64,000 bases of DNA, taken from assembly GCA_902777855.1 (NCBI GenBank), contig CACYVN010000003.1, positions 1 through 64,000 on the forward strand, in the 5' to 3' direction. The notes beneath the pieces were generated by a model. That model was not told where the DNA came from. It saw only the letters and a program-made list of their open reading frames with translations, and made no database searches. The position numbers were made by a program, and so were the translations under genes. Positions 54,162 through 58,065 of this stretch are shown here, in pieces. How positions within the stretch are numbered: the stretch's first letter is position 1; each line of letters opens with the position of its first letter. This stretch comes from an uncultured bacterium. Its GTDB lineage: Bacteria; Cyanobacteriota; Vampirovibrionia; Gastranaerophilales; Gastranaerophilaceae.

Positions 54162-55520
54162 ATGAACATTGTTATTATTGGCGGTGTTGCATCAGGTGCC
54201 AAAGCCGCAGCAAAAGTCAAACGATTACTCCCAAATTCTAGTGTTAAGATTTACACTGACGATACACATGTTTCATATTCATCATGTGGTCTGCCTTATT
54301 ATATACAGGGCAATTTTGCCGATTATAGTTCACTTTTGGTTCGCTCACCGGAAGAATTTAAAGCATCCGGTATTGATGTGTTTCTGAATTCAAAAGCGGA
54401 AAAAATTTTGCCAGAGCAACAAGATGTACTAATATCAAATTTGGAAAAATCAGAATTAGTACATTATGACAAACTAATTATTGCAACAGGTGCAAGTCCT
54501 GTACGCCCCAAAATTTCAGGTATAGATAATTTTAATAATATTTTTACTGTTAGAACAATTGAGGACGGCATAAAAATCAGAGAAAAAATGCTAAAATCAA
54601 AAAGAGTAGTAATTATCGGTGGCGGATATATTGGTATTGAAATTCTGGAAGCATTTTCAAGAAACGGTGTTTATACGCATTTATTTGAACGTAGTCCTCA
54701 AATTATGCCAACTCTTGATGCTGAGATGTCTGAAACTGTCAAAAAGCGATTAAATTCAATAGAAAATAAAAATTTTGAACTTCACACTGATACATTGGTA
54801 ACTGAATTTACAGGCAGTAACGGTATACTAACAGGAGTAAAAACATCAGACGGTAAAGAATATGAATGCGAAATGGCAGTTGTTTGTGCAGGTGTCAAAC
54901 CAAACATTGAGCCTGCAAAAGAGGCGGGAATAGAAATTGGAGAGACAGGTGCAATTAAAGTAAACAAGCTCATGCGTACATCGGTCGAAAATATTTTTGC
55001 CTGCGGTGATTGCGCCGAAAAAACGCATATTGTTTCCGGCAAAAAGGTTTGGATTCCGCTTGGTTCAACAGCTAATAAAGAAGGCAGATGTGCTGCGATG
55101 AATGTTGCGGGTGTATATTGCGAGTTTGAAGGCATTTTAGGCTCAATGGTTACAAGATGTCTTAATACAACTATTGCAATGACAGGTTTAACTGAAAAAG
55201 AGGCACTTGAAATCGGTTTTAAACCTGTATCTGTTGTTGTAAGTAAATATGACAAAGTTGCATATATGCCTGATACAGGCGAAATAACGCTAAAAGTAGT
55301 TGCAGATAAAATAACAGGTCTGCTGCTTGGTGCGCAGGCAGTAGGTTCAATAGGCGCAGATAAGCGTGTTAATACTGTTACTTCAGGTTTGATAGGACAT
55401 TTAACAGTAGAAGAATTTAGTAATAATGACCTTACATATTCTCCTGCTTATTCACCAACAATTGACCCGCTATTAAACGCAATGCAGATATTATGCAACA
55501 AAACCGCCCGTTCATGTTAA
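54162..55520 (+). CDS. CoA-disulfide reductase-like FAD/NAD(P)H oxidoreductase
   Basis: A 452-residue flavoprotein of the pyridine nucleotide-disulfide oxidoreductase class I family. It has the first dinucleotide fold IVIIGGVASGAKAAAKVKR, the single redox cysteine in YSSCGLPYYIQG as in CoA-disulfide reductase and NADH oxidase, ATGASPVRP, the second fold VVIIGGGYIGIEILEAFSR and the FAD ribityl motif FACGDCAEKTH. The C-terminal dimerisation domain is intact. Likely roles are low-molecular-weight thiol reduction or water-forming NADH oxidation as O2 defence; no rhodanese domain is fused. It overlaps the convergent FAD gene by nine bases. Confidence 0.88.
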   Translation: MNIVIIGGVASGAKAAAKVKRLLPNSSVKIYTDDTHVSYSSCGLPYYIQGNFADYSSLLVRSPEEFKASGIDVFLNSKAEKILPEQQDVLISNLEKSELVHYDKLIIATGASPVRPKISGIDNFNNIFTVRTIEDGIKIREKMLKSKRVVIIGGGYIGIEILEAFSRNGVYTHLFERSPQIMPTLDAEMSETVKKRLNSIENKNFELHTDTLVTEFTGSNGILTGVKTSDGKEYECEMAVVCAGVKPNIEPAKEAGIEIGETGAIKVNKLMRTSVENIFACGDCAEKTHIVSGKKVWIPLGSTANKEGRCAAMNVAGVYCEFEGILGSMVTRCLNTTIAMTGLTEKEALEIGFKPVSVVVSKYDKVAYMPDTGEITLKVVADKITGLLLGAQAVGSIGADKRVNTVTSGLIGHLTVEEFSNNDLTYSPAYSPTIDPLLNAMQILCNKTARSC

Positions 55521-56795
55521 TTGCTTTTTTATATATTTTGCAACGGCTTCGCCCATAGAAAAACAACTTGCCTGAACTCTTAGTGCTCCTTGAGCCATTT
55601 CATCGGCGCTTAGCCCCCTACCCGCGACAAATAAATTGTCATAATCAGCACTCATCAGACTTTCAACAGGCAATTGGTATTCACCGGTCTTTTCAAGTGT
55701 TGAGGAGTTTTTGTCTTTGGAATGAACATCAACAGGGTAATTTGATATCAATACAGGATTATCAAATTTTTTACCGCTACGTAAATCATCTATAGTGTAA
55801 ATATATTTGCCCTTAATTCTTCTGTATGAACGTATGCCAAGAATATCCGCAATATTTGAAATGTAGGCATTTTCAAATCCGGGTAAATAGACATTACAGA
55901 ATTTTGCTATTCTCGCCATTGCGCACACTCCATCAGTTTTTGCCCTGTTAATATCTGTTTCATCCTCTAAATTGTATGCCTCAAGTAATCTGGGACAATT
56001 AAAAGCCACTGATTGTGGAGTGCCTGCGATGCTAAATATCTGGAAATAGTTTCTGTCACTGTCTTTCAAGACATTTTTTGAGACAGCGTCATCAAATAAT
56101 GGGGCTAAAGCCCAGTGTTTATCAGTATCCCAAGTGTATGCAGTTGAAAAATACGGTTCATTATCTATATATTCAACTGTTGTAACATCCCTGTCCTTGT
56201 CGTATTCACTTAACCATTGTGCAAATTTTTTGTTGTCTATTCCACTCATAATAAATCTGAAACTTATCGGCGGAATTTCTTTTTTATTTTCTAAAAAATT
56301 ACAATTAATATTTTTTGAAAAATCTAAATTTCCGCTTGCATCTACAACATAGTTCGTTCCGATACATACCGATAACATATCTTTGCGCGTAATAATATTA
56401 TTTGTATGTATCGTATCGTAATATACCGATAATATTTTATTGTTTTTAACTTCTGCATGAGTTGCGGATGAATTAAATTTTATATCAACTTTTGCATTTT
56501 TAAGTATTTCGTATAATACATCTTTTAAAATAATCGGATTAAACCAACCGGGATTATCCTGATATGTAATTTGGGCTTTTCTTTTTGCCATTTCATTAAT
56601 TAGTAATTTATAAAAATCAGTGTTGATTTGGTTTTCGCCTGACTTCATAACCGGAACAACAAGCCCGCCTGTCATTGTACCGCCAAGATAAGATTCTTTT
56701 TCAAGCAGTAAGGTTTTAAGCCCCAGGCTTGCGCTATTATATGCACAAGAACAGCCTGCAGTTCCACCGCCTGCTATTACTACATCATAATCCAT
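55512..56795 (-). CDS. FAD-dependent oxidoreductase (GidA-like Rossmann fold)
   Basis: A 427-residue flavoprotein of the FAD_oxidored family: MDYDVVIAGGGTAGCSCAYN for the FAD fold, LLEKESYLGGTMTGGLVVPV, VVDASGNLDFSKN and, near the end, FVAGRGLSADEMAQGALRVQ, the family C-terminal FAD motif. The substrate is unknown. Its start overlaps the end of the mnmD-like gene by 11 bases. In MnmC an FAD oxidase domain is fused behind the same methyltransferase, so this enzyme could play that oxidase role although it belongs to another FAD family. An insertion near residues 130-155 (YYDTIHTNNIITRKDMLSVC) is encoded by repeat copies. Confidence 0.85.
   Translation of the reverse strand: MDYDVVIAGGGTAGCSCAYNSASLGLKTLLLEKESYLGGTMTGGLVVPVMKSGENQINTDFYKLLINEMAKRKAQITYQDNPGWFNPIILKDVLYEILKNAKVDIKFNSSATHAEVKNNKILSVYYDTIHTNNIITRKDMLSVCIGTNYVVDASGNLDFSKNINCNFLENKKEIPPISFRFIMSGIDNKKFAQWLSEYDKDRDVTTVEYIDNEPYFSTAYTWDTDKHWALAPLFDDAVSKNVLKDSDRNYFQIFSIAGTPQSVAFNCPRLLEAYNLEDETDINRAKTDGVCAMARIAKFCNVYLPGFENAYISNIADILGIRSYRRIKGKYIYTIDDLRSGKKFDNPVLISNYPVDVHSKDKNSSTLEKTGEYQLPVESLMSADYDNLFVAGRGLSADEMAQGALRVQASCFSMGEAVAKYIKKQLT
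56354..56378. repeat. Short intragenic repeat, copy 1
   Basis: The plus strand contains TTCCGATACATACCGATAA, the inverted form of the core TATTGGTATGTATCGTTTCG. With the next copy it makes an inverted pair inside the FAD oxidoreductase gene. Confidence 0.55.
56390..56417. repeat. Short intragenic repeat, copy 2
   Basis: AATATTATTTGTATGTATCG then TATCG; it encodes DTIHTNN in the FAD oxidoreductase frame. A partial third unit (ATACCGATAATATT) follows at about 56423-56436. Confidence 0.6.
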
Positions 56796-58065
56796 TATTC
56801 CTCCTTATTTTGAGATATTGAGAACTCGATATCCGGTTACTGTTTTCAACCTCAATTTTATGAGCCGCTATAATAGCCTCATTTGACGCATTTAAATTTT
56901 CATCACGATAAAATATACCTGCCTTTGTATTTAAGAGCCCTAATTGGGCATCTGATAAAGGATAATTTATAAGTGAATTATTTTTTACAGCTACTGTTCC
57001 TAAATATTTATTCAGTCGCTCATTATAAATGTTCCCAATTTCAAATCCTGCCTCTTTCATTGCCGAACGAATTTGTGCGGATGATGAATAGGTTAATAAC
57101 ATTCCGTCATCTTCCATAATTTCATAAAGTCTTTTAAAAAAATCATATGTCCATAAACATGGACATTTTGAGGGTGTAAAAGCATCCAAAAATATCAGAT
57201 TATATAAATTTCTATCTTCTTTTACTACATTTCTTGCATCATCAATTTTTACTGTTAAATTAAAATCCTGTATTTTATACCATTTCAAGTATGTTTTATA
57301 ACAATACGATAGATACCGATAATATATATTATGTAAATTAAAAAGAAAACTACCTGATGATAAATATGTCAAAAGGTATTTATTGACCCCCCTTAAATCG
57401 CTTACTATGAACTTTTTATACTCTCTGTTATCCAGAATAGGCGCTACAAGCGGATTTCGGAGAATTTTAGGCGAATTTTGGGCAATTTTTAATAAAATTT
57501 GAAAATTTATGATATTTTTAATTTTAGGAAAATTTTTGTTTTTCCTGTTGAGATATTTATCTATATCATGTTTATTTATAATGTCAGAATTGTTTTTAAA
57601 ATTTCTTACCCCTGTTTTTATAAAAGGTGATAATCCGAATAAAATTTCATCATTATCTATGGCTGTTACAGAAATTTTGTTGAATGCGTTATTGGTATAT
57701 ATCGTTTCGCTATAATTAACCGTTTTCTCTTTAGAAATATTATTGGTATGTATCGTTTCGATATTTGTTTTTTTTTCAAAATTATTTTTGGAATTTTTTT
57801 TAAGATTATTTTTCTTTTTTAATAATTTTTTTTTATTTTCAAAAATATAATTTAAAAAACTTTTTGTGTTATAACCAATTCCGTAGCAAATATCAAGTAT
57901 GTTAATATCTTCATGCAGCAATAATACATCCCAGTTTATAGGGCATATAAACTTCTCATATGCCTCTGTTAGCGCCCCTGAGGCACTATGATAAATATCG
58001 TCATAATCCTGACTATACAACCCGACTGAACCGTCATTAGTAAAATATGGTTGAAACTCTCTCAT
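56785..58065 (-). CDS. MnmC-type tRNA wobble-uridine methyltransferase (MnmD-like) with a large insertion
   Basis: A 426-residue methyltransferase. The start FTNDGSVGLYSQDYDDIYHS with GALTEA is the MnmC/DUF752 signature, followed by a SAM-fold glycine loop ILDICYGIGYNTKSFL and LIFLDAFTPSKCPCLW, the catalytic DAF(T/S)P motif. MnmD methylates nm5(s2)U34 to mnm5(s2)U34, downstream of MnmE/MnmG. Between the SAM loop and the catalytic domain lies an atypical Asn/Lys-rich, partly repetitive insert (about residues 75-260 in part: KKKLLKKKNNLKKNSKNNF, ETIHTNN, ETIYTNN) encoded by copies of the local repeat. Length is well above the 230-250 of stand-alone MnmD. The reading frame is open. Confidence 0.82.
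   Translation of the reverse strand: MREFQPYFTNDGSVGLYSQDYDDIYHSASGALTEAYEKFICPINWDVLLLHEDINILDICYGIGYNTKSFLNYIFENKKKLLKKKNNLKKNSKNNFEKKTNIETIHTNNISKEKTVNYSETIYTNNAFNKISVTAIDNDEILFGLSPFIKTGVRNFKNNSDIINKHDIDKYLNRKNKNFPKIKNIINFQILLKIAQNSPKILRNPLVAPILDNREYKKFIVSDLRGVNKYLLTYLSSGSFLFNLHNIYYRYLSYCYKTYLKWYKIQDFNLTVKIDDARNVVKEDRNLYNLIFLDAFTPSKCPCLWTYDFFKRLYEIMEDDGMLLTYSSSAQIRSAMKEAGFEIGNIYNERLNKYLGTVAVKNNSLINYPLSDAQLGLLNTKAGIFYRDENLNASNEAIIAAHKIEVENSNRISSSQYLKIRRNNGL
57304..57329. repeat. Short intragenic repeat, copy 3 (inverted)
   Basis: TACGATAGATACCGATAATAT on the plus strand, the opposite orientation to the copies at 57.7 kb. It encodes HNIYYRYLSYC in the mnmD-like frame. Confidence 0.5.
57688..57713. 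repeat. Short intragenic repeat, copy 4
   Basis: GTTATTGGTATATATCGTTT then CG; it encodes ETIYTNN in the mnmD-like frame. Confidence 0.6.
57736..57767. repeat. Short intragenic repeat, copy 5
   Basis: AATATTATTGGTATGTATCG then TTTCGATATT; it encodes ETIHTNN in the same frame as copy 4, 48 bases away. Confidence 0.6.

Follow-up and report, generated by a model that had tools for sequence, protein, structure and literature searches.

Convergent XerC-side half-sites around a predicted dif suggest an undescribed terminus architecture in a family of gut bacteria

Bacteria separate their completed chromosomes at a site called dif, and the translocase FtsK pauses at Xer/dif. In Bacillus subtilis, XerD bound at its sites is described as unloading SMC at the chromosome terminus (PMC10945525, PMC12322038). 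Known replication fork traps arrange ter sites in two opposing groups with dif between the innermost members, and the ter sites of B. subtilis are 32-bp imperfect inverted repeats composed of one strong and one weak half (PMC10331603, PMC13220808). Host Xer recombination is also exploited by the elements termed IMEX (PMC9765430). A published dif from Acinetobacter baumannii reads TGTTCGTATAA-TGTATA-TTATGTTAAAT (PMC10132070), and a survey by Kono et al. (2011) obtained no dif prediction for any of the Cyanobacteria it covered (PMC3025954). Our search of the open-access literature returned neither an account of arrays of XerC-side half-sites flanking dif nor one of a dif from Gastranaerophilales.

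The locus described here lies in a stretch of 64,000 nucleotides (the window) from an uncultured member of the Gastranaerophilaceae, whose nearest relatives with a name in the database are Candidatus Gastranaerophilales, gut bacteria that are related to cyanobacteria but do not photosynthesize. An earlier note, made from the sequence alone, had reported at least five copies of a repeat in both orientations, all lying inside the coding sequences of two neighbouring genes. The repeat is real in each of these respects, and the count can be made exact: six copies of a ~31-bp element, TATWWCGNNN-CGATAYATACYRATAA-TATTT, are present at 56350-57765 (within 1.4 kb), and one of them (57307) belongs to a predicted dif site. 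The core originally proposed for the repeat, TATTGGTATGTATCGTTTCG, yields three matches in the window at up to three mismatches, against 0.02 expected, and these are the sole matches at that threshold in the whole 1.94-Mb genome. A refined core, CGATAYATACNRATAA, matches four of the six copies exactly, one with one mismatch and one with two, and a search of the same genome outside the window revealed no copy at zero or one mismatch. The features of the locus are as follows.

55512..56795, minus strand: FAD-dependent oxidoreductase gene (PF12831, 5.2e-68), holding the three left-hand half-sites
56785..58065, minus strand: MnmC2/MnmD-like methyltransferase gene (PF05430, 2.8e-23; NF033855, 1.1e-26, under the curated cut-off), holding dif and the two right-hand half-sites
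56350..56380 (core 56360-56375), plus strand: candidate XerC-side half-site left of dif, pointing toward dif, antisense in the FAD gene; 32.7 bits
56393..56423 (core 56398-56413), minus strand: candidate XerC-side half-site, one half of a back-to-back palindromic pair, encoding DTIHTNN; 31.3 bits
56407..56437 (core 56417-56432), plus strand: candidate XerC-side half-site, the other half of the back-to-back pair, pointing toward dif; 33.7 bits
57297..57339, plus strand: predicted dif with extended left arm, TATAACAATA-CGATA(GATACCGATAA overlapping)-TATATA-TTATGTAAATT, antisense within the MnmC-like gene, where it encodes HNIYYRYLS; XerC arm 57312-57322, 6-bp centre 57323-57328, XerD arm 57329-57339
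57684..57714 (core 57689-57704), minus strand: candidate XerC-side half-site right of dif, pointing toward dif, encoding ETIYTNN; 30.4 bits
57735..57765 (core 57740-57755), minus strand: candidate XerC-side half-site right of dif, pointing toward dif, encoding ETIHTNN; 36.2 bits

In this part of the window (55512-58065), the PF12831 oxidoreductase stands beside the MnmC2/MnmD-like methyltransferase in place of the usual MnmC1 domain, and it is possible that the pairing constitutes an alternative split MnmC pathway.

The copy at 57307, in the middle of mnmC, runs on into GATACCGATAA-TATATA-TTATGTAAATT (57312-57339). This sequence has the 11-6-11 layout, and its XerD arm matches TTATGTTAAAT of the A. 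baumannii site at 9 of 11 positions. The string ATAA-TATATA-TTATGTAA is nearly invariant across 95 loci and is present also in other families of the order. Furthermore, coding-strand-corrected GC3 skew changes sign at the repeat cluster in three genomes, with clusters at 805-806 kb in G069, at 244.7-246.0 kb in G072 and at 56.3-57.8 kb in the window, where the flip itself is located at 56-64 kb. Among further genomes, the skew flips near dif in G129, is one-sided in G170 and is ambiguous in G127; G131 is too short, and the contigs of both G131 and G127 end near dif. One XerC-like protein (304 amino acids) and one XerD-like protein (290 amino acids) are encoded in the genome of the window, and each scores best to its own family, just under the equivalog cut-offs. 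From these sequence features, we identify the locus as the predicted chromosome replication terminus with its dif. An origin was considered and rejected, as the distance to dnaA varies among genomes and the sign of the skew, like the sequence of dif, points to a terminus. The dnaA gene (G000:C3:66006-66530) and dif are ~8 kb apart in the genome of the window (G000), but ~255 kb apart in G006 and ~300 kb in G069.

The remaining five copies are very probably extra XerC-side arms of dif that carry an upstream extension. Each such half-site can be read as a pseudo-palindromic block, TATWWCG-NNN-CGATA, which runs into the predicted XerC arm ATACYRATAA and lacks the 6-bp centre and the XerD arm. A 31-bp weight matrix (TATWWCG-NNN-CGATAYATACYRATAA-TATTT) was built from 39 loci of the genus and 60 loci of the family, oriented on mnmC. 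At a threshold of 9 bits or more, this matrix, which was trained on the same loci that it then scored, yields 577 matches in the fetched genus and family loci, compared with 8 for a reversed control. Conservation extends to two bases outside the 16-mer used for selection, C(-5) at 91-98% and G(-4) at 81-89%, and this is true of both orientations.

The copies are arranged symmetrically with respect to dif. All 94 family loci that have dif carry further copies (mean 4.9), and copies are present on both sides of dif in 89 of them. When back-to-back pairs are left out, 336 of the 350 copies in these 94 loci point toward dif and 14 point away. The best convergence point falls between -300 and +50 bp from dif, and 96% of copies converge there. 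Typically there are two to three copies per side, mostly within about 1.4 kb, and neighbouring copies are spaced 30-84 bp apart with no clear helical period discernible by eye. Back-to-back pairs number 57 in all, and their cores overlap through CGNNNCG; the inverted pair that the earlier note had recognized at 56354/56398 does exist. The layout in the window, with a plus-strand copy followed by a minus/plus pair to the left of dif and two minus-strand copies to the right, illustrates this geometry, and the layout of the array is unchanged by the orientation of the operon on the chromosome. No repeats of the right arm of dif were found in the flanks of the loci tested.

Comparisons among relatives indicate what the array follows. 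Of 46 genomes from the genus, 37 contain exact cores, nearly all in the mnmC-FAD operon (the reversed pattern gives 0-1), as do 69 of 241 genomes drawn from across the order, all 69 being from the window's own family; most of these genomes are probably metagenome-assembled, and related genomes are not independent. Of 30 exact matches examined from other genera, 28 sit at or beside the mnmC/FAD locus. The FAD gene adjoins dif in most genomes checked. In family genomes where mnmC is not detected or is located on another contig (G127, G129), dif is intergenic, mostly beside the FAD gene, and is still flanked by convergent copies, whose cores carry changes that follow those of the local dif arm (e.g. 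CGATTGGTAACGATAA). More generally, across 67 genomes the dif arm is closer to the copies in its own genome than to foreign ones, at p of about 1e-6 prior to any phylogenetic correction. Other families of the order carry dif within mnmC at the same codons and with a similar extended arm (e.g. TATTTCT-ATT-AGAAATAGACCGATAA), and no extra copies were found in the 1.5-kb flanks of dif in those families. As judged from these comparisons, the array is linked to dif and not to mnmC. In several genera (loci L105, L113, L117, L122, L136, L169-L171 and L185), 0.5-2.6 kb of DNA is inserted between mnmC and the FAD gene beside dif, and in L008 a pilin-like gene is inserted there, making this gap possibly an insertion hot spot.

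All six copies in the window fall within coding sequence, two near the N terminus and one in the middle of the MnmC-like gene, and three in the adjacent FAD gene. As the earlier note had pointed out, three of them give (E/D)TI(H/Y)TNN in two different proteins, which is confirmed by the translations. The other three, which lie in different frames or on the antisense strand, correspond to LSVCIG, ILSVYYD and IYYRYLSY. Across the family loci, copies besides dif are found in frame 1 sense of mnmC (174), in frame 0 antisense (157) or frame 1 sense (50) of the FAD gene, or outside both genes (72). The earlier note had remarked that both proteins look longer than their families, and MnmC indeed has 426 amino acids here compared with about 340-370 in other families of the order. 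Where a genus has a short MnmC, the N-terminal copies sit upstream of the gene, outside the coding sequence. An AlphaFold2 model of the MnmC-like protein has a mean pLDDT of 49.8, and the segment bearing the repeats (91-127) scores below 50, a confidence too low to be informative, if compatible with a loop.

The copy in the middle of mnmC is encoded as CAT-AAT-ATA-TAT-TAT in 92 of 92 genes, even though in the gene set as a whole these codons are chosen for their amino acids in just 77, 79, 44, 77 and 77% of instances, respectively. Likewise, TTA opens the antisense copies in the FAD gene in every one of 162 cases, and the third position of their fifth codon is almost always C. Such codon fixation is seen across about 30 genera and in several frames, a sample whose effective number is reduced by kinship. 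Synonymous positions are held constant on either strand and in several frames, so selection acts on the DNA, and what is conserved is the nucleotides rather than the residues. Relatives with the same residues but without the DNA repeat, which would have pointed to chance or to ordinary conservation of protein sequence, were not seen.

Sites resembling dif are also present on phage contigs. Three viral contigs from IMG/VR (L427:3310, L428:14130 and L429:3130) and one phage-like sequence (L137:2995, on G002:C39) carry an extended arm followed by TAAATA or TAAAAA and then TTATGTAA(C/G)AA. These sites reach 39 bits, which is above many chromosomal dif copies, and each has one extended arm and no array. 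They look like attachment sites of elements of this family that likely use host Xer recombination in the manner of IMEX. The occurrence of the full extended arm in such sites ties the arm to Xer recombination, and not to fork arrest or gene regulation. A plasmid search with one of the phage dif-like sites gave short matches at chance level only. The genome of the window also contains further dif-like right halves (e.g. ATAACATATATTATGTAA), located at C2:127566, C2:127910, C7:294384, C10:167, C18:107 and C23:91, three of which are less than 200 bp from contig ends; these are possible pdif-like or Xer-mobile elements.

We propose that the half-sites of the array are occupied by the host XerC-type recombinase, and that a second, dimeric protein probably rests on the pseudo-palindromic block TATWWCGNNNCGWWATA. 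Since the centre and the XerD arm are missing, the half-sites should bind protein but not recombine. To translocases that approach along either replichore (SMC, or FtsK during division), an array bound in this manner would signal that dif has been reached, and the translocases would then be unloaded or paused there, much as XerD sites unload SMC at the B. subtilis terminus. The copies would be located inside genes simply because dif is inside a gene, and would be accommodated in variable protein segments. A full-length SMC is encoded in all 10 genomes tested. Given that XerD unloads SMC and that FtsK pauses at Xer/dif, marking of the terminus for translocases seems the most likely job for the array. 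We assign a probability of about 0.5 to the complete reading, namely that inward-pointing XerC-type half-sites, arrayed around dif, show translocases where the terminus is. The role in unloading or pausing SMC or FtsK is by itself offered tentatively, at slightly less than even odds. The known SMC-unloading sites are XerD sites, whereas it is the XerC-side arm that is repeated here. Moreover, the conserved block is longer than the 11-bp XerC arm, and therefore another protein may be the true reader.

The same convergent polarity, with dif between opposed sites, also fits a replication fork trap, and this is the strongest rival explanation. The half-sites would then be Ter-like, and a terminator protein would admit forks to the zone around dif and block their exit from it. 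In keeping with this arrangement, the sites are asymmetric and form opposed groups on the two sides of dif, at the skew flip and with a strong bias toward dif. However, the core of the element is dif's own XerC arm, the back-to-back pairs would block forks in both directions, and the same extended arm is borne by phage sites, where fork arrest would be senseless. We consider a fork trap unlikely, if better placed than the other rivals. Control of the dif reaction ranks third among all readings and is likewise improbable. Under this explanation, the half-sites would be accessory to recombination, serving in XerC loading, sister-dif pairing or a synapsis filter, as in plasmid Xer sites. It would account for an arm that is the same as that of dif, adjoins dif and is retained in phage dif-like sites, and other families, where the reaction could dispense with the repeats, indeed show none within 1.5 kb. 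Nevertheless, the phage sites hold one extended arm and no array, and copies on both sides, up to 1-2 kb away and facing dif, would be an odd layout for a synaptic complex.

Two other explanations are already contradicted by the data. That the copies are functionless remnants, half-sites left behind as dif-using phages repeatedly integrated and decayed, gains some plausibility from the existence of such phages, but integration regenerates whole sites with XerD arms, yet the right arm is unrepeated in the loci tested. In addition, conservation at the codon level in about 30 genera, fixed positions and the high degree of convergence demand selection, leaving this origin very improbable. Least credible of all is a function in the mnmC-FAD operon, either as operator or RNA elements or as a conserved (E/D)TIHTNN peptide. 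Although most copies are in or beside the two genes and three window copies encode the same peptide, the copies occupy both strands and several frames, genomes with dif outside mnmC retain the repeats around dif, and genera with a short MnmC carry the N-terminal copies outside the gene. An operator or RNA hairpin was also rejected specifically, given that the array follows dif, that copies lie on both strands and that the inverted copies in the window are non-complementary at their variable positions. A parS centromere was ruled out as well: no ParB_N domain was found in the window's own genome, the sole genome searched, and no canonical parS was found at one mismatch or fewer. With no ParB_N found in that genome, SMC loading must differ from that in Bacillus, a point against the translocase reading, and chromosome segregation in this organism may proceed without ParABS.

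In a broader proposal, convergent half-site arrays around dif constitute a new Xer-based terminus system, which acts as a polar barrier or unloading zone for forks or translocases and differs from Tus, RTP, MatP and the XerD-site system. We regard this proposal as plausible but a little short of an even bet. If true, such a terminus system spans a whole family of non-photosynthetic cyanobacterial relatives, at least one of which apparently lacks ParB. A dif sequence can now be given, as a prediction, for an order of the Cyanobacteriota, the phylum for which the 2011 survey predicted none. The terminus architecture, a predicted dif with convergent XerC-side half-sites maintained by nucleotide-level selection inside two genes, points to a hitherto undescribed organisation of the end of replication in a family of gut bacteria. 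It would also offer an independent natural test of whether Xer proteins act at the terminus beyond dimer resolution, and a handle on phages whose integration in these bacteria apparently takes place at dif. Finally, it illustrates how DNA that serves chromosome maintenance can impose what look like insertions in proteins.

Compared with known systems, the array shares individual traits with several. The earlier note had likened the repeat to Rickettsia palindromic elements, which are short palindromic repeats situated in frame inside genes. An in-frame repeat of palindromic character is indeed present, but the array is confined to a single locus, with exact cores nowhere else in its genome; it occupies several frames and both strands, is found outside the two genes as well and tracks dif, and a dispersed element of the Rickettsia type was therefore rejected. 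With classical dif/XerCD, the locus shares a XerC arm, a 6-bp centre, a XerD arm (TTATGTAA), a position at the skew flip, XerC- and XerD-like proteins and use by phages. It differs in that the left side is extended by a pseudo-palindromic block, and in that the site lies within an MnmC-like gene and is surrounded by convergent extra left arms. Tus/ter and RTP/ter likewise place dif between two opposing sets of asymmetric sites, but the sequence here is dif's own arm and is found also in phage attachment-like sites. The phage sites resemble the dif-like sites of IMEX and the pdif sites of Acinetobacter in having a XerC arm, an altered centre and a XerD arm, whereas the chromosomal half-sites lack both the centre and the XerD arm. 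The XerD sites (XDS) of B. subtilis are likewise sequences resembling Xer half-sites that cluster next to dif at the terminus, in an organism with SMC; in the Gastranaerophilaceae it is the XerC-side arm that is repeated, in an extended form, symmetrically and facing dif within about 1-2 kb.
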